Of a stretch of 64,000 bases of DNA, positions 1-7,326 are shown in pieces. Every line of letters begins with the position of its first letter. The stretch's first letter is position 1. This stretch comes from Desulfobacteraceae bacterium 4572_130. Its GTDB lineage: Bacteria > Desulfobacterota > Desulfobacteria > Desulfobacterales > Desulfobacteraceae. The stretch is from the NCBI GenBank assembly GCA_002084425.1, contig NBLN01000011.1, positions 62,001 to 126,000 on the forward strand. Direction: 5' to 3'. Both the position numbers and the translations under genes were made by a program. Under the pieces are notes generated by a model that made no database searches, was not told the origin of the DNA, and was given only the letters and a program-made list of their open reading frames with translations.

Positions 1-285
1 TCTCATGAGGTGAATAACTTAGGGAATCATTGGAGAAAATTTACTTTTTGCGGACACATTTTAGTTAGTACTTTGGTTTTAATTGCTTTTTGGAAGATAC
101 GTTTTAGGGATTCTCTTCTTACAGAAAACTATAAACTAAATCAAAAAGTTAAGATTAAAGAAGAGGAAAATTTTTATATTATCGTAGGTGCCTCTGTAGA
201 GAAAGACGGAATGATTTTACAATTAAAACAAGAAAATGGTGAAAAAATTCGAATTGAACAAATTACAAATATTTTAAGCATTTAA
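1..285 (+). CDS. Hypothetical small membrane protein, possibly 5'-partial
   Basis: The reading frame is open to the left window edge. The first internal start is a GTG at 10, so the gene may begin outside the window. From that GTG it would be 91 aa. A hydrophobic stretch at about residues 12-29 looks like one membrane segment; the rest is a charged, lysine/glutamate-rich tail. I do not recognise a family. It ends just before a structured, GC-richer intergenic block and a chain of toxin-antitoxin modules, so it may belong to the same accessory stretch. Confidence 0.4.
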   Translation, partial: SHEVNNLGNHWRKFTFCGHILVSTLVLIAFWKIRFRDSLLTENYKLNQKVKIKEEENFYIIVGASVEKDGMILQLKQENGEKIRIEQITNILSI

Positions 286-307
286 ATTTATGCTTCAAAA
301 CTAAAAT

Positions 308-540
308 AGCTAACAAGCCAGTTGAGACATATTTCATGAACCGTCGTTCCTTCGTCACTCTGGTCCATGAAAACGCTCATTTCAATGTTACAGCCGCCGC
401 AGGCGGCTGTAACGCCGAGTTAAGCTGTTGCTTCACATTTTGTTATTCCAGCAAGCGGCTATAACAAAATGTTAGAATAGAAATGCTTTCCGCTTTCCAG
501 ACCCGCTATTTGAAGCTCTAAACATTCAGCTCAACTCGGC
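308..540. repeat. Structured intergenic block with nested perfect hairpins
   Basis: This stretch is GC-richer than its surroundings and holds three nested structures. A 12-bp perfect stem (387-398 with 402-413) encloses a 3-nt GCA loop. A second 12-bp perfect stem (435-446 with 461-472) has a 14-nt loop. A 14-bp inverted repeat with one mismatch (414-427 with 527-540) encloses the second hairpin. AGCTAAC at 308-314 and GTTAAGC at 419-425 lie 118 bp apart, vaguely like integron attC core sites, but AGCTAAC does not fit the RYYYAAC consensus. No gene is visible between 286 and 625. Confidence 0.6.
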
Positions 541-559
541 TCTTCTTTTAATCTTATGG

Positions 560-598
560 TTGTATCATACATCAGTATATGCTTATAATGGATGTATG
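560..598 (+). promoter_or_regulatory. Promoter and operator of the vapBC module
   Basis: A -35 box TTGTAT (560-565) and a consensus -10 box TATAAT (584-589) are separated by 18 bp. A perfect 8-bp inverted repeat, CATACATC (566-573) and GATGTATG (591-598), brackets the -10 box. This suits autoregulation by the VapB-VapC complex, which in known systems binds such inverted repeats. vapB starts 27 bp further on. Confidence 0.65.
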
Positions 599-625
599 TA
601 ATTAAAATCAAAATAGGAGTAAACC

Positions 626-823
626 ATGAGAACCACATTAAATATCCAAGATGAGCTGATTAGTAAAGCCTCTAAACTAACTGGAATCAAAGAAAAAACA
701 TCTTTAGTTAGACTTGGTTTAGAAGCGCTAATTGCAAAAGAAAGCAGCAAGCGTCTGGCAAAACTTGGGGGAACTGAAAACAATGTAAAATCTATACCTC
801 GGAGGAAATCTGTCAATGTCTGA
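626..823 (+). CDS. vapB: VapB-type antitoxin
   Basis: This is a 65-aa antitoxin. The first ~45 residues have the ribbon-helix-helix pattern of the VapB (DUF2191-like) family: a short beta strand (MRTTLNIQDEL) and two helices with a conserved LVRLGLEALI stretch. The lysine/arginine-rich tail would wrap the toxin. The start follows the ribosome binding site AGGAG by about 6 nt. The stop codon overlaps the next gene by 8 nt, the usual coupling of antitoxin and toxin. The operator-like repeat upstream (566-598) is the likely autoregulatory site. Confidence 0.8.
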   Translation: MRTTLNIQDELISKASKLTGIKEKTSLVRLGLEALIAKESSKRLAKLGGTENNVKSIPRRKSVNV

Positions 824-1199
824 ACTGGTATTAGCAGATACTTGTGTTTGGGTTAAGCATTTTAGAAAAGGTCAGAAACATCTTATTCAGTTACTTGAGC
901 AAGGTTTTGTAGTGTGCCATCCATTCATCATAGGAGAACTAGCATGTGGCGGTCTAAAAAATCGGAGTGAAATCATTCAATTACTTGAAGCATTGCCTAA
1001 GGTTGATGTGCTTGAACATGCAGAAATAATGGAGTTTATTGAAACTCGCAAGTTAATGAGCATTGGCATTGGGTATGTTGACATTCACTTGCTTGGTTCA
1101 TCACTTTTATCAAGTACTCCTTTATGGACATTTGACAAATCATTAGCAAAAGCTGCAAATTTGCAAAACATTGATTATAATATCAAGTTAAAAAAATAA
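816..1199 (+). CDS. vapC: VapC-type PIN-domain ribonuclease toxin
   Basis: This 127-aa protein is one PIN domain. The acidic residues expected for Mg2+-dependent RNA cleavage are visible: Asp in LADTCVW near residue 8, Glu in IGELACGG near residue 41, Asp in GYVDIHLL near residue 90, and Asp in TFDKSLAKAA near residue 107. The start is preceded by GGAGG and lies inside the end of vapB. VapC toxins cleave tRNA or rRNA when free of VapB; the target here is unknown. Length is normal and no damage is visible, so the module is probably functional. The 195 bp after it hold no recognisable feature. Confidence 0.85.
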   Translation: MSELVLADTCVWVKHFRKGQKHLIQLLEQGFVVCHPFIIGELACGGLKNRSEIIQLLEALPKVDVLEHAEIMEFIETRKLMSIGIGYVDIHLLGSSLLSSTPLWTFDKSLAKAANLQNIDYNIKLKK

Positions 1200-1394
1200 C
1201 AAATGTTTGCAAGCAGCTGAAATGCAGCATTAATCCGACTTTTTACATACTCATCAAACTTAAAAATTTAAAATTAACCGCATAAAAGCAATTTTAAATA
1301 TTACAATATACTGGTGATTTTGCTTTCGAGTCTATTGTGCCATTTTGATACTATGGATAGATAGAATTTACAACCGAAAAATAGGACAAAAAAG

Positions 1395-1423
1395 TTGACG
1401 ATGTATATCTTTTGTCATACTAT
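1395..1423 (+). promoter_or_regulatory. Promoter of the brnTA module, close to the start codon
   Basis: The -35 box is TTGACG (1395-1400), the spacer is 17 bp and the -10 box is TACTAT (1418-1423). The toxin start codon at 1430 lies only 7 nt past the -10 box, so transcription would begin at or beside the ATG, giving an almost leaderless mRNA. No Shine-Dalgarno sequence precedes the ATG, which fits. Confidence 0.5.
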
Positions 1424-1429
1424 AGTGCT

Positions 1430-1711
1430 ATGAAACTATTTAAATGGAATTCAGAAAAAAATGAAATTCTTGCTATAAGCAGGGGAATTACATTTGAAGA
1501 AATCGTACAAAGGATTGAGTCAGGAACAAAAGTAATTGAAACTGACCATCCTAATAAAAAAAAGTATCCAAATCAAAAAATATTGATAGTTGATGTAGAA
1601 GGTTATGCTTATTTAGTTCCTTATGTAATAGATAATAACGAGTATTTTCTTAAAACGATTATTCCGAGTAGAAAGGCAACAAAAAAATATATTAAAGGTT
1701 ATGGAGGTTAA
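1430..1711 (+). CDS. brnT: BrnT-family ribonuclease toxin
   Basis: This 93-aa protein resembles BrnT toxins (RelE-like fold). It opens with the typical F-x-W-N-x-x-K-N pattern (KLFKWNSEKN), continues with a GITFEEIV helix, and ends with a beta-rich half closing in IIPSRKATKKY. An upstream TTG at 1412 lies inside the promoter, so ATG 1430 was chosen. In characterised pairs the toxin gene precedes the antitoxin, BrnT cleaves mRNA, and the BrnTA complex represses its own promoter. Here too the antitoxin follows after 2 bp. Confidence 0.8.
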   Translation: MKLFKWNSEKNEILAISRGITFEEIVQRIESGTKVIETDHPNKKKYPNQKILIVDVEGYAYLVPYVIDNNEYFLKTIIPSRKATKKYIKGYGG

Positions 1712-1713
1712 GC

Positions 1714-1992
1714 ATGGGAAAAAAGCAAAATAAAATAATATTTGATGATTATGAAAATGAAATATTAGAAGCATATGAAAGCGGCAAGCTTAAACCATTG
1801 CATTCAAAAACAGATTTCCAGACCATAGCCAAGAATAGTATGAGGAAAAACCGAAAGATCAATATAAGAATAACAGATAATGATCTGTCAGCATTACAAA
1901 GAAGGGCAGCTCGTGAAGGCATTCCTTATCAAAAATTAATTGGCAGTATTCTTCATAAATATGCTAGTGGATTTTTAAAAGATTCTATTTAG
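1714..1992 (+). CDS. BrnA/CopG-like antitoxin
   Basis: This 92-aa partner of the preceding BrnT has an acidic N-terminal half (FDDYENEILEAYESG) and a C-terminal ribbon-helix-helix-like segment. That segment reads INIRITDNDLSALQRRA followed by EGIPYQKLIGSILHKY, a pattern common to CopG-like antitoxins. GGAGG about 10 nt upstream of ATG 1714 supports the start. It should neutralise BrnT and bind the operon promoter. The stop lies about 15 bp before the first long direct repeat. Confidence 0.75.
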   Translation: MGKKQNKIIFDDYENEILEAYESGKLKPLHSKTDFQTIAKNSMRKNRKINIRITDNDLSALQRRAAREGIPYQKLIGSILHKYASGFLKDSI

Positions 1993-2006
1993 TAACTTGG
2001 CTGGTA

Positions 2007-2673
2007 TAACCCATATGACCAAGCTCTTATCAATACCCAATAAAATTAGACAATAATTTTTTTTTTACATTTTTATATAAAATAAAATTTCCTGACTTTA
2101 ATTCAAAAATAAATAGTTGTTAAAACCTGTTGCAAACACATCTTAATAGTTTTTTACTCAGCATTGTGTGCTCATTGGTTTACCAAATGATCCAATAATA
2201 TTACCAAAAGTAAACACCATAGAATAAATTTTGTGGTCTCTTATGCTGTTCTTTTCAAAATACTTGCCTAAATCAATCCATCTTTTCAAACAAAAAAAAA
2301 ATAAATCTTATAATTACAAGTACTTAGCATTTTAAAACCTTTGCTATGGCACTACATTATTTATCCAAGCTTATGATTTGATTTTGAAATTTTATTGATG
2401 TAGTGTGCATTTTAACAAGGCTTCTATGTTTATTTTTTTGTTTTAATTACAAATAATGTATATTAGATATAGGCGCTCTTATGAATTTGTTTATATATTT
2501 CAAATAATTATAATATTAAAATGTACAAAAATTAAGTCAGAAAGTTAAGCAATATCATTTATATTTCATGTTTTTGTACAATATTTATTAATATCAAATA
2601 ATGCCAGGCATTTTTTGATATGCCTGCTGTAATATGAATGATATTATTTATTTATGTGCAATGATAATTGTTA
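2007..2673. repeat. Long direct repeat, copy A (about 667 bp)
   Basis: Copy A of a long AT-rich direct repeat, with copy B at 3423-4035. Both begin at TAACCCATATGA and end at a TGCAATRATAATTRTTA-type motif. Long stretches match by eye, for example CCTGACTTTAATTC, CAAGCTTATGATTTG and TTTGTTTATATATTTC, with scattered differences. Copy A carries a 63-bp insert (2590-2652) missing from B. No convincing ORF lies inside. GTTAGGC at 2670-2676 closes the copy, 7 nt before the next ORF. The module follows each TA unit and may mark cassette-like units. Confidence 0.8.
2590..2652. mobile_element. 63-bp insert with competing hairpins in copy A
   Basis: This segment is present in copy A of the long repeat but absent at the matching site of copy B. 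It holds two overlapping inverted repeats, ATATCAAA (2591-2598) with TTTGATAT (2614-2621), and AGGCAT (2606-2611) with ATGCCT (2620-2625). They cannot both form at once. A tiny non-autonomous inserted element is one reading; a deletion in copy B is the other. Confidence 0.4.
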
Positions 2674-2683
2674 GGCATATGTG

Positions 2684-2863
2684 ATGGCAACAATAAATGT
2701 GGCTTGCCCATATTGCGGGAAGCAGACATGGGTAACCGCTCCTACTTGGACAGATGATAATGGCAGATTAAGAGAAAAAAGTATTTATCGTGTTGTACAA
2801 AACCCAAGTTACAAAAAAATATTTAAAACAACAATTCATGTAGCCCTGCCCAAACGGACATAG
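2684..2863 (+). CDS. Small CxxC zinc-ribbon-like protein, unknown function
   Basis: This is a predicted 59-aa protein with one CPYCG motif near residue 8, reminiscent of a half zinc ribbon, and a basic C-terminal half. No second CxxC pair is present, so metal binding would need a dimer or is absent. A GTG at 2681 is an alternative start. No Shine-Dalgarno is obvious. It sits directly behind the end of the long repeat and ahead of an antitoxin gene. It may be a genuine small gene of the cassette or a chance ORF; I do not recognise a family. Confidence 0.4.
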   Translation: MATINVACPYCGKQTWVTAPTWTDDNGRLREKSIYRVVQNPSYKKIFKTTIHVALPKRT

Positions 2864-2904
2864 ATTTGGGGTGCTGTTTAGTTAAATTTTATGAGGTGAC
2901 AAAA

Positions 2905-3147
2905 ATGAAATCAATAATTAATACAACTTTGCAGTCAATTGGAACGCCTGAAGCTTTTTATCGTCTGTTTCGTTCCCTGGCACAAAATGAAAGGTTTACA
3001 GCCGCTCGTTATATTTTAGAAGATGAAGAAATACGGCATCATTTGAAAATTCCTAATGAAATAACATTAGAAGCTCTTTCGGAAGATAAAAATAATATGC
3101 CAATTTTTAACACAATTGATGAGTTGCGAGAGGATTTGTTGAAGTGA
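2905..3147 (+). CDS. RelB/DinJ-like antitoxin of a YafQ-type pair
   Basis: This is an 80-aa protein. The C-terminal segment MPIFNTIDELREDLLK resembles the toxin-binding tail of RelB/DinJ-class antitoxins, and the N-terminal half is helical. ATG 2905 is preceded by GAGGTG about 5 nt upstream and was preferred to a TTG at 2866. The stop codon overlaps the GTG start of the toxin reading frame (GTGA), the usual translational coupling. The antitoxin is intact although the toxin frame behind it carries a stop codon, so it may now be an orphan or cross-acting antitoxin. Confidence 0.65.
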   Translation: MKSIINTTLQSIGTPEAFYRLFRSLAQNERFTAARYILEDEEIRHHLKIPNEITLEALSEDKNNMPIFNTIDELREDLLK

Positions 3148-3416
3148 AATATCCTATTCGTAGAACAAGGCAATTTCAAAAAGATATAAAGCGATTGAAA
3201 CGAAGTGGCAAAACTATCGAAAAGTTGCTTTTCGTAATCAATAAACTTGCTGAAGGAGAAAAACTTTCTCGAAATTAACGTGACCATTCACTCAAAGGTG
3301 CACTTAAAGGTAAACGGGATTGTCATATCGAAGACGATTGGATTTTACTTTATTCTATTGAAGATAAAGAGCTTATTCTCTATCGTACTGGGAGTCATTC
3401 GCAATTGTTTCGATAA
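3144..3416 (+). pseudogene. YafQ-type mRNA interferase toxin with in-frame stop
   Basis: From GTG 3144 the frame encodes a YafQ/RelE-superfamily toxin: an N-terminal RTRQFQKDIKRLKRSGK helix, then KLLFVINKLAEGEKL. After a TAA at 3276-3278 comes RDHSLKGALKGKRDCHIEDDW, and it ends with the hallmark LYRTGSHSQLF, stopping at 3416. The family usually has a residue such as Tyr at the position of the stop, so one base change explains it. Residues on both sides remain well conserved, indicating recent inactivation or recoding. The downstream half contains the family's catalytic His/Asp residues, so the truncated product should be inactive. Confidence 0.8.
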
Positions 3417-3422
3417 ATTGCC

Positions 3423-4035
3423 TAACCCATATGAGCCCCGGTCTTGTCAATAGGCAATAAAAATTTATTAGGGAAAAATACATTTTCCCTTTTTAAAAGT
3501 GTTAACAAAGTAAAATGTCCTGACTTTAATTCAAAAATAAATACTCATTAAAACCTGCTGCAAACACATCTTAATACTCTCTTACTCAGCATTATGTGCT
3601 TCATGGTTTACCCAATGATCCAATGATATTATCAAAGGTAAATGCCATAAAATAAATTTGCTGTTCTTATGCTGCTCTTTTCAAAATACTTGCCTAAATT
3701 AATCTATTCTTTTCGATCAAAAAATAAATCTCATAATTACAAGTACTTAACATCTCAAAACCTTTGCTATAGTACTTTAGGTTGTTTATCCAAGCTTATG
3801 ATTTGATTTTGAGATTCTATTGATATAGTGTGCATTTTAACAAGGCTGCTATGTTTATTTTTTTGTTTTAATTACAAATAATGTATATTAGATATAAACG
3901 GTCTTGTGAATTTGTTTATATATTTCAAATAATTATAATATTATAATGTGCAAAAATTAAGTTAGAAAGTTGAGTAATATCATTTATATTTCATGTTTTT
4001 GTACAATATTTATTTATGTGCAATAATAATTATTA
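3423..4035. repeat. Long direct repeat, copy B (about 613 bp)
   Basis: Copy B of the repeat at 2007-2673. GCCTAAC at 3420-3426 marks its left end, inverted relative to the GTTAGGC that closes copy A at 2670-2676. The pair therefore brackets the small-ORF/antitoxin/YafQ unit. Compared with A it lacks the 63-bp hairpin insert and has point and small indel differences throughout. No ORF or RNA gene is recognisable inside. Confidence 0.8.
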
Positions 4036-4057
4036 TGTAAAAAAATAGGGAGATCAA

Positions 4058-4408
4058 ATGATTGATAAGATTTTCCAAATTTCAAATCATGTTCGCTATG
4101 TCGCCATTTACCAAGATGGGAAATTACAAACTCAAGCCAAAGACGGTACAAAAGGTGCGAGTAGTTCTGAGTCTGATAAATATGAAGAACTGATAGCAAA
4201 CCCAGTAATGCTAAAAGCAGCGTCTCAGCGAGGTAACATCGACTGCGGTGGTTTGGATTTTCTCTTGATCAGATACGGAAATTTTTTCCAATTCATACTT
4301 CCAGTTTCATGGGGGCATGTTTCAGTGTGTATTGATAAAGATGCTGAGCCAATTGTTATTGGAAATAAAGTCAAAGAATTCTTTGTAAATGAGCTGAAAT
4401 TTGCATAA
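4058..4408 (+). CDS. Conserved hypothetical protein, possibly roadblock-like
   Basis: This 116-aa protein has a good GGGAG ribosome binding site. The pattern VRYVAIYQDGKL, then SSSESDKYEELI, then GGLDFLLIRYGNFFQ and GHVSVCIDKDAEP alternates strands and helices, compatible with a roadblock/LC7-like alpha-beta fold. The family looks familiar as a conserved hypothetical of mobile or cassette regions, but I cannot name a function. It is the last accessory gene before the chromosome resumes inside a yqeB remnant, and it follows copy B of the long repeat directly. Confidence 0.65.
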   Translation: MIDKIFQISNHVRYVAIYQDGKLQTQAKDGTKGASSSESDKYEELIANPVMLKAASQRGNIDCGGLDFLLIRYGNFFQFILPVSWGHVSVCIDKDAEPIVIGNKVKEFFVNELKFA

Positions 4409-4417
4409 CTCACTTGT

Positions 4418-4817
4418 AGTGTAATAGAAACTAATAGAGGCCATAATCTTGGAAAAATTATTTTAAAAGGGTGTGTGTGCCTAGCCTAATACAGGTATTC
4501 CAGCCAATATGAATGGACACACAAAGCAAAGGGTTTTACGCTCTCCTTGTTCAGGCTTATTTAGGTCTGATTTAACAATAGGCACAATTATTAAAAAAAA
4601 TGATATAATAGGATATGTTGATAATAGGCCTGTTATTGCTCAAATAGACGGCATCTTAAAAGGGCAGATAAGAAATAATACAAAAGTAACATATAACCTT
4701 AAAATTGGAGATATTGATCCAAGAGGAAATATTAATTATTGTACAACTATATCAGAAAAAGCACGAACCATTGGCAAAAGTGTGCTTAAAGCTATTTTAA
4801 GAAAATACAATCAATAA
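4418..4817 (+). pseudogene. yqeB: yqeB (EF2563) remnant: truncated and frameshifted
   Basis: The C-terminal third of a selenium-dependent molybdenum hydroxylase accessory protein (YqeB/EF2563 family). Homology starts at about 4418 in one frame as VIETNRGHNLGKI, runs into a stop after a GT-repeat, and resumes in another frame from about 4485 as PNTGIP. It then reads RVLRSPCSG, GQIRNNTKVTYNLKIGDIDPRG and SEKARTIGKSVLKAI. Everything upstream is missing and is replaced by the toxin-antitoxin region, so the break marks the edge of an insertion or deletion. The 102-aa ORF from ATG 4509 may still be translated. The intact molybdopterin-binding gene follows after 29 bp. Confidence 0.8.
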
Positions 4818-4846: not shown

Positions 4847-5866
4847 ATGAAAAAAATTAAAGTTGAAAATGCCATTGGAACAGTTTTAAGCCATGATATA
4901 ACGCGGATTGTTAGAGGAAAATTTAAAGGAGTTGCATTTAAAAAAGGACATATTGTTAAAAAACAAGATATTCCTGAATTTTTAAAAATCGGGAAACAAT
5001 ATTTGTATGTTCTTGATCTTGGAAAAGATTTGCTCCATGAAAATGATGCTGCAAAAAGAATTGCAAAGGCAATTTCCCATGAAAATCTTGAATTTACAGA
5101 ACCAAAAGAAGGCAAAGTCAGTATTAAAACAAAACATGCAGGATTATTAAAAATTAATGTTAATGCTTTGCTTGAGATTAATAAAATAAACAGCATTATA
5201 GTTGCTTCATTAAAAAATAATTTTCCTTGTAAAAAAGGAGAGATTATTGCTGCTACAAGAATTATTCCTTTAACTATTCCTAATAAAAATATTGAGAATT
5301 TAGAATTACTTACAAAAAAAACAGATACTATTTTTCAGGTTAAACCTTATAAAGCTCTAAAAATCGGTGCTGTTGTAACAGGTTCTGAAGTTTATAAAGG
5401 ATTAATCACTGATGACTTTGGTCCTTCTGTAGGTAAAAAAATAACTGATGCAGGATGTACACTTATTAAAAAAATTGTTGTACCTGATGAAGTTACAGCT
5501 ATCTCTAATGCAATTCTTAAACTAAAAAAATTTGAATGTGATTTAATTATTACAACTGGAGGACTTTCTGTTGATCCTGATGATGTTACAAAAAACGGAG
5601 TTATAAAAGCAGGTGCAAGTGTTACATTTTATGGAAGCCCTGTTCTTCCAGGTTCTATGTTAATGGTTTCCATGCTTAATAATATTCCTGTAATTAGTCT
5701 GCCTGCTTGTGTGTTTTATTATAAACAAACTGTGTTTGATTTGATTTTTCCAAGAATTCTTGCAGGCGAGCAAATTAATGAAAATGATATTGCAGCTATG
5801 GGACATGGAGGACTTTGCATGAATTGTGAAGTGTGCCATTATCCTGTTTGTTCTTTTGGCAGGTAA
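4847..5866 (+). CDS. Molybdopterin-binding (MoCF) protein of a molybdenum hydroxylase system
   Basis: This 339-aa protein has an N-terminal domain starting VENAIGTVLSHDITRI, as in MoeA-like proteins. A MoCF/MogA-type domain covers about residues 175-310, with GAVVTGSEVYKG, ITTGGLSVDPDDVT and LPGSMLMV, the molybdopterin-binding signature regions. It ends in a cysteine cluster (CMNCEVCHYPVC). Such proteins are usually encoded beside molybdenum hydroxylase maturation genes and are thought to handle the cofactor for xanthine-dehydrogenase-type enzymes. The yqeB remnant directly upstream fits that role. The hydroxylase itself is not in the window. AGGA upstream supports ATG 4847. Confidence 0.8.
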   Translation: MKKIKVENAIGTVLSHDITRIVRGKFKGVAFKKGHIVKKQDIPEFLKIGKQYLYVLDLGKDLLHENDAAKRIAKAISHENLEFTEPKEGKVSIKTKHAGLLKINVNALLEINKINSIIVASLKNNFPCKKGEIIAATRIIPLTIPNKNIENLELLTKKTDTIFQVKPYKALKIGAVVTGSEVYKGLITDDFGPSVGKKITDAGCTLIKKIVVPDEVTAISNAILKLKKFECDLIITTGGLSVDPDDVTKNGVIKAGASVTFYGSPVLPGSMLMVSMLNNIPVISLPACVFYYKQTVFDLIFPRILAGEQINENDIAAMGHGGLCMNCEVCHYPVCSFGR

Positions 5867-6135: not shown

Positions 6136-7326
6136 ATGTTAACAAAGGCATTTATACCATATAAGGGATATTATTCATCTCCTTTTGCAAGATGGCAGGG
6201 AAGTTTTGCAAATCATCATTCCATTATTTTAGGTTCTGAAACAGCTAAAAACTGGCTTAAAACAAAAAAAATAAGCTCTGATATTTTTGATTATTTAATT
6301 CTTGGTGCAACTATAGGGCAACCTCATATGTTTTATGGTGGTCCCTGGGCATCAGCTTTAATTGGGGCAGAAAATATTTCAGGGTGTCTTATAAGTCAAG
6401 CATGTTCAACATCAACTAGTGTTATATTTCAAGCAGCACTTGGCATTGAAACAGGATTTTATGAAAATGTTTTTACTCTTATGACTGATAGATGTTCTAA
6501 TGGGCCTCATACTATTTGGCCTAATCCCAATGGTCCTGGGGGACAGGTAATTTCTGAAAATTGGGTTATGGATCAGTTTAATAATGATCCATGGGCAAAA
6601 AATCCTATGATTCAAACAGCTGAAAATGTTGTTAAGGAAACTGGTATAACAAAGGAGCAATGTGATGAAGTTGCTTTACAGCGTTATGAACAATATATGA
6701 AAAGTCTTGAAAACAATGAAAAATTTCAAAAAAAATATATGTTTCCTGTAACCATTAAATTATCCAGAAAAAAAACAATTCAAATAGAAAAAGATGAAGG
6801 CATTATGCCGACAACTAAACAAGGTCTTGAAAAATTAAAACCTGTATTATTAAATGGCGCCCATACTTTTGGCTCTCAAACCCATCCAGCTGATGGCAAT
6901 TGTGGTTTAATTGTTACAACAAAAGAAAAAGCAGAAAAATTAAGTTTTGACAAATCAAAAAATACACAAATTATTTCTTATGGATTTTCAAGAGCAAAAA
7001 AAGGATTTATGGCAATGGCAGTTGTACCTGCTGCACAAATGGCTTTAGATAAAGCAAAAATTTCCATTAATGATGTAAAAGTCATTAAGACTCATAATCC
7101 CTTTGCTGCTAATGATATTTATTTTGCAGATCAAATGAATATTAATGTAAATTCATTTAATAATTTTGGCTCTTCTCTTATATTTGGACATCCACAAGCT
7201 CCAACAGCAGGCAGACTTATTATTGAAGGTATTGAAGAACTTGCAGATAAAGGTGGCGGCGGATATATGCTGTTTACAGGGTGTGCAGCAGGAGATACAG
7301 GAGCAGCACTTGTACTTAAAATGTAA
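6136..7326 (+). CDS. Thiolase-family acyl-CoA acyltransferase
   Basis: This 396-aa protein has thiolase length and motif order. A nucleophilic Cys near residue 90 lies in SQACSTSTS. GHPQAPTAGR near residue 350 replaces the usual GHPxGxxGxR, and FTGCAAGDTGAA near residue 383 carries the second active-site Cys. Thiolases condense or cleave beta-ketoacyl-CoA. The motif departures suggest a divergent subfamily, so the substrate is uncertain. A strong GGAGG site precedes ATG 6136. The genes behind it encode a saccharopine-dehydrogenase-like protein and a class III aminotransferase, suggesting amino-acid or keto-acid breakdown, with an AAA-ATPase gene in between. Confidence 0.8.
   Translation: MLTKAFIPYKGYYSSPFARWQGSFANHHSIILGSETAKNWLKTKKISSDIFDYLILGATIGQPHMFYGGPWASALIGAENISGCLISQACSTSTSVIFQAALGIETGFYENVFTLMTDRCSNGPHTIWPNPNGPGGQVISENWVMDQFNNDPWAKNPMIQTAENVVKETGITKEQCDEVALQRYEQYMKSLENNEKFQKKYMFPVTIKLSRKKTIQIEKDEGIMPTTKQGLEKLKPVLLNGAHTFGSQTHPADGNCGLIVTTKEKAEKLSFDKSKNTQIISYGFSRAKKGFMAMAVVPAAQMALDKAKISINDVKVIKTHNPFAANDIYFADQMNINVNSFNNFGSSLIFGHPQAPTAGRLIIEGIEELADKGGGGYMLFTGCAAGDTGAALVLKM

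Follow-up and report, generated by a model that had tools for sequence, protein, structure and literature searches.

Introduction

YqeB proteins are described by the profile TIGR03309 (matur_yqeB, selenium-dependent molybdenum hydroxylase maturation), which a passage in Haft and Self ties to genomes with selD (PMC2276186). In C. difficile, deletion of yqeB is reported to eliminate the gain in growth from uric acid and to reduce that from xanthine severely (PMC11448449); loss of yqeB without a backup copy would therefore be expected to matter. In relatives of the Desulfobacula and Desulfotignum type, yqeB belongs to an operon, whose full form reads xdhL_a, FAD subunit, xdhS, xdhL_b, moeA-like, yqeB, thiolase, saccharopine-dehydrogenase-like gene and aminotransferase. 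In several relatives xdhL_a is separated from the FAD subunit gene by extra genes, and the loci L084, L085, L089 and L093 have two extra genes between the moeA-like gene and yqeB. We fetched 20 relative loci, of which 16 have both a moeA-like gene and yqeB (two of these 16 come from one genome, G036). In 15 of the 16 the order is moeA then yqeB on one strand, with thiolase next in 12; in the exception, G055, the moeA-like gene is merely 46% identical. A set of 23 named loci encoding a MoeA-like relative (by title, 6 Desulfobacula, 2 Desulfotignum, 5 Desulfobacterales/Desulfobacteraceae, 4 Deltaproteobacteria, 1 Proteobacteria and 5 others) gave the same order in all 16 loci having both genes, many of them on the same contigs as the 16 above. 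By eye, the second moeA-yqeB module of relative G036 (L085, G036:C16) adjoins an apparent IS91-type transposase. Nine papers mention yqeB together with selenium and molybdenum hydroxylase, and a literature search found none that combines any two of the following topics: Desulfobacula, selenium-dependent molybdenum, a truncated yqeB and a yqeB pseudogene.

Here, we describe a broken yqeB in a 64,000-nt stretch (hereafter the window), which is C3:62001-126000 of a 1.94-Mb Desulfobacula-like genome in 24 contigs (80% complete), C3 being a 192-kb contig. At this locus the order is xdhL_b (ending at C3:57265), ~9.1 kb of accessory genes, a yqeB remnant, the moeA-like gene and thiolase. With high probability, the feature is a pseudogene that consists of the 3´ half of the operon yqeB; it lies at the accessory island and is redundant beside a second yqeB.

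Results

The C-terminal half of YqeB is encoded in two frames

YqeB-like sequence begins at position 4421 of the window, 12 bp after the stop of the last accessory ORF (4058-4408), close to the start at about 4418 given by a first-pass annotation that had been made from the sequence alone. The first piece, VIETNRGHNLGKIILKGC (4421-4474, + strand), corresponds to TIGR03309 positions 130-148 (E 2.6e-5) and matches residues 146-163 of the intact YqeB of the same genome at 78%; it sits inside a 23-residue stretch that aligns to the same profile positions with 23.8 bits. It is followed by a 10-nt GT run (4475-4484, +) that ends in TAG, whereas all 20 genes compared, from 19 relatives, have 6 nt at this place; the last three nt of this lesion are the TAG in the second frame. 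The second piece (4485-4817, +) runs in that frame from PNTGIP at 4485 to the natural stop at 4815-4817, and matches the operon YqeB of relatives G053 and G035 at 66-69%. Within it, the ORF at 4509-4814 aligns to TIGR03309 positions 159-255 (E 2.1e-32, 112.6 bits). The shift of frame near the GT run that had been proposed is thus borne out by profile matches on both sides. A genome-wide profile search joined the two pieces (positions 139-255, E 1.5e-37, 129.3 bits, with one TAG and one TAA), a match far beyond chance.

Compared with the YqeB described by TIGR03309, the remnant is recognisable over positions ~130-255 in two pieces; it has no N-terminal half, its frame is broken and a TAG lies inside, and no single open frame spans the profile (1-256). 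The joint score of 129.3 bits is below the curated cutoff of 220. Similarity sets in at residue 146 of the 275 of the intact protein, or approximately position 130 of the 256 in the profile. The gene has therefore lost about one half (~145 codons), less than the N-terminal two thirds estimated earlier. A search for the missing part to the left of the window had been advised. Only two TIGR03309 matches were found at E 0.001 in this genome (80% complete), and 28 YqeB N-terminal halves (of 33 rows, the other five having no motif that could be used for cutting) searched over 100 kb of C3 gave a best E of only 0.063. The 5´ part was therefore found neither in these 100 kb nor in the genome, and because the genome is 80% complete, it could lie on a missing piece.

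On the side of decay, six of the 58 columns invariant in 20 relatives' yqeB genes are altered in the remnant, compared to 0-3 for each relative left out in turn; the intact copy of the same genome, on contig C12, also deviates at 7 of these 58, though it is a member of another clade. Against strong decay, an open frame of 110 codons persists in the second piece, most conserved residues are retained, and the branch leading to the remnant in the tree described below (0.27, against an end-branch median of 0.21) has a length ordinary for intact genes. Given these three observations, either recent decay or some residual role of the remnant is conceivable.

The remnant derives from the operon copy of yqeB

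The remnant is 67-76% identical, over 127-128 columns, to 13 relatives' genes that share its tree clade; over its 128 columns the full set of 32 relatives' genes in the tree gives 48-76%, and identity to the C12 copy is 58%. In the tree, a 29-row clade (support 92/82) contains the remnant and leaves the C12 copy outside, and the remnant's own 14-row clade, drawn open in the tree, has support of 85/91. Eleven of the 13 clade genes adjoin the moeA-like ortholog, while G037 and G045 do not show such a neighbour. On account of the identity pattern, the tree placement and these neighbours, we assign the remnant to the operon copy; judged from the tree, the C12 copy is another lineage of yqeB. The remnant is thus nearest to the yqeB of the syntenic operon and has kept the operon neighbours, as looked for in a yqeB pseudogene. 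C12 stretches correlate with the window at 0.98 in tetranucleotide composition, compared to 0.61-0.87 for three relative loci, and C12 is therefore very likely part of this genome.

The Desulfobacula- and Desulfotignum-type operon genes are the closest sequence relatives of the remnant and share its neighbours; unlike in those operons, the remnant stands before moeA, not after it, and accessory genes separate it from xdhL. The MoeA-like molybdopterin-binding gene that follows (4847-5866, +; PF00994, E 2.4e-21) is intact, as had been stated; it is open to one terminal stop and shares 74-81% identity with the full-length orthologs from 16 relatives' operons. Next is the thiolase-type gene (6136-7326, +; 75-85% in 12 relative loci), which in relatives follows yqeB. 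Further accessory insertions in the operon are a GmrSD-type gene with an N6/N4 DNA methylase gene, between the FAD subunit gene and xdhS (L003:5761-8428, which is C3:51761-54428), and a gene for an AAA-type ATPase, which separates thiolase from the dehydrogenase.

A local moeA-yqeB duplication, with losses afterwards, would probably explain why remnant and moeA stand in swapped order. Such a model might have left yqeB debris between moeA and thiolase. In these 269 bp only a single 18-residue match was found, with E 8, which counts against it. In the family set searched this genome is the only one of its genus, which is why no intermediate state was seen.

The accessory island ends at the remnant

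The window opens with the right part of the accessory region (1-4408, +), which as a whole extends from C3:57266 to 66408 (~9.1 kb) and carries several toxin-antitoxin-type genes. Its last ORF (4058-4408, +) encodes 116 aa, has an 81% paralog at C5:17004-17345 and gave no match in Pfam, NCBIfam or PHROGs; matches to it were found in 6 of 389 order genomes, its own included. At the DNA level, the similarity between the window and C5 covers 4007-4412 (82%) and stops there, while C5 continues with 45 bp resembling the start of a repeat at window 3417-3461 (84%). The island unit therefore ends at about 4412, and with yqeB similarity starting at 4421 the junction falls in 4409-4420 (+). This supports the earlier view that the accessory region has its right-hand limit at a truncated, frameshifted yqeB. 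The repeat, noncoding and ~600 bp long, is present twice in this part, with a first copy at 2004-2674 (+, limits by eye; aligned blocks 2062 to 2673) and a second, 86% to the first, at 3425-4035 (+, limits by eye; aligned 3447-4027), ahead of the last ORF. A frame at 3144-3416 resembles, by eye, a RelE/YafQ-type toxin and is broken by an in-frame TAA at 3276-3278. On C5 (L105:6518-7986), a 75-aa ORF that by eye looks like a truncated tyrosine recombinase, the paralog of the 116-aa ORF and a tRNA-Arg are close together. On C2 (L106:7300-11700), two ABC-permease genes, of the spermidine/putrescine type by eye, flank a second accessory island made up of toxin-antitoxin-like and other small genes (also named by eye).

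A 97-nt element with a covarying hairpin recurs in these regions. Of its five strong copies in the genome, one is in the window (2580-2676, +; C3:64580) and the others are at C3:57265-57361, C5:16885-16980, C2:28460-28556 and C2:31091-31187. By eye, every strong copy directly precedes an accessory ORF, and the C3:57265 copy starts at the final base of the xdhL_b stop, i.e., at the left edge of the island. Using a model built from the same five copies, we found one further weak match in the genome (E 0.7) and none in 85 family relatives at E 0.01, the latter under stricter filters that lose weak matches. Both sides change at three of the seven hairpin pairs and 34 of 35 cells are paired; values as high also came up in 17 to 41 of 500 shuffles, the set being limited to five sequences. 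Because single-strand folding singles out one of the five copies as clearly better than its own shuffles (z -2.16, compared to values from -1.27 to 0.13 for the rest), the case for a structure rests on the pair changes. Rfam at gathering threshold detected only one tRNA, on C5, in the loci L003, L105 and L106.

Conceivably, the island is part of a lineage-specific cassette system without an integrase, marked by the 97-nt folding element and inserting gene cassettes at operon joints, as in the C3 and C2 islands, and its growth here reordered moeA and yqeB and halved yqeB; we offer this as a tentative and rather unlikely proposal. An integron cassette array was considered as well. No integron integrase scored above the cutoff in this genome, which is 80% complete (TIGR02249, best 92 bits, cutoff 265). 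The attC R' motif is GTTRRRY, and the 80 nt ahead of the start contain it for 4 of 16 accessory ORFs compared to 2 of 42 control ORFs, a small difference.

An intact second yqeB and other selenium maturation genes are present in the genome

The first-pass annotation had gone on to suggest that selenium-dependent molybdenum hydroxylase maturation is damaged, and had advised a check for another intact yqeB and for selD and xdh genes, all of which were found. The intact yqeB lies at C12:113608-114369 (341 bits, cutoff 220). Also above their cutoffs are yqeC (155 bits, cutoff 73), an XdhC-type maturation gene (368 bits, cutoff 350), a Se-dependent xanthine dehydrogenase gene (890 bits, cutoff 830) and selD (355 bits, cutoff 125), the last with one in-frame TGA, as is usual for a selenocysteine-containing SelD; a YgfJ/MocA-like gene is slightly under its cutoff (178.6 versus 186.5). 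As judged by gene presence, what was sought for the selenium cofactor trait is there: intact yqeB, yqeC, selD and a Se-dependent hydroxylase gene. Maturation could still be truly impaired if the intact C12 copy does not serve the C3 enzymes, the broken copy being orthologous to the one that goes with the xdh genes of C3. Both hydroxylase large subunits encoded on C3, however, score low, with 419 and 308 bits, well under the Se-dependent xanthine dehydrogenase cutoff of 830, which makes their need for selenium only putative. With the maturation genes above all present in the same genome, impairment appears improbable, and judging from gene content the trait looks backed up, not lost, at the genome level.

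The break is not readily explained by sequencing or assembly error

An indel error could account for the frameshift and a chimera for the junction, the lesion being at a dinucleotide run and the genome a draft in 24 contigs. However, six neighbouring genes of the window (moeA-like, thiolase, AAA-type, dehydrogenase, aminotransferase and cinA) all have frames that are uninterrupted up to a single terminal stop, which makes an indel error unlikely, and the length change at the run is accompanied by the TAG. The loss of ~145 codons and the swapped order, moreover, lie well inside the 192-kb contig. We therefore give such an artefact only a slim chance, slightly below that of impaired maturation.

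Partial YqeB sequences in other genomes

According to the first-pass annotation, an intact YqeB-like family of this short size in relatives would have refuted the reading as a truncated yqeB. Over-cutoff yqeB was present in 40 of 86 family genomes and in 89 of 389 order genomes (a set that includes the family genomes, with six candidates scored per order genome), and no short stand-alone YqeB was found in either set. In the order genomes, 23 weak TIGR03309 matches (20-26 bits) start at profile position 144 or later; all five that were inspected (G066, G064, G062, G072 and G004) are biotin-carrier-like, with an EAMKM motif that we take to be biotin-attachment-like. Partial matches in G139 and G018 were rejected as short genes, since they run to within three bases of contig ends. 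Three genomes resemble this one in having partial yqeB beside full copies: G052:C6 (positions 63-142; in a second search of L100:8271-8531, positions 66-142 with 98 bits), G247:C75 (L159; positions 192-255, several frames) and G190:C15 (L158; positions 163-209 and 209-254, several frames). With broken pieces beside full copies in all three, decay of yqeB recurs. Their breakpoints differ from that of the remnant, and the G052:C6 fragment, unlike the remnant, has a transposase-like ORF nearby (by eye). In G034, two overlapping C-terminal pieces lie on one contig.

That the C-terminal half is a separate small protein (102 aa from the ATG at 4509), the carrier-like half of YqeB serving as a binding domain, is the least credible of the alternatives: its open frame, retained residues and ordinary branch length, the carrier-like weak matches, and the 29.3% identity of C. 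difficile YqeB to biotin carboxyl carrier protein, for which Johnstone and Self suggest a binding role (PMC11448449), are compatible with it, but a stand-alone C-terminal YqeB was found in none of the 86 family and 389 order genomes (six candidates scored per order genome), the C-terminal fragments of G247 and G190 are split over several frames beside full copies, those of G034 overlap on one contig, and six conserved columns have changed in the remnant.

Discussion

The case is best read as an ordinary one, in which an operon yqeB was truncated at an accessory island and would no longer be a working gene. Growth of the island or a rearrangement would have removed the 5´ half. The remnant is probably no longer maintained, since the second yqeB would cover its function.

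The locus holds a warning that a broken maturation gene in one window does not amount to loss of the trait, as a second copy on another contig alters the conclusion. With its breakpoint now mapped and a candidate element in hand, it also lends itself to the study of how accessory islands grow within the metabolic operons of this group of bacteria.
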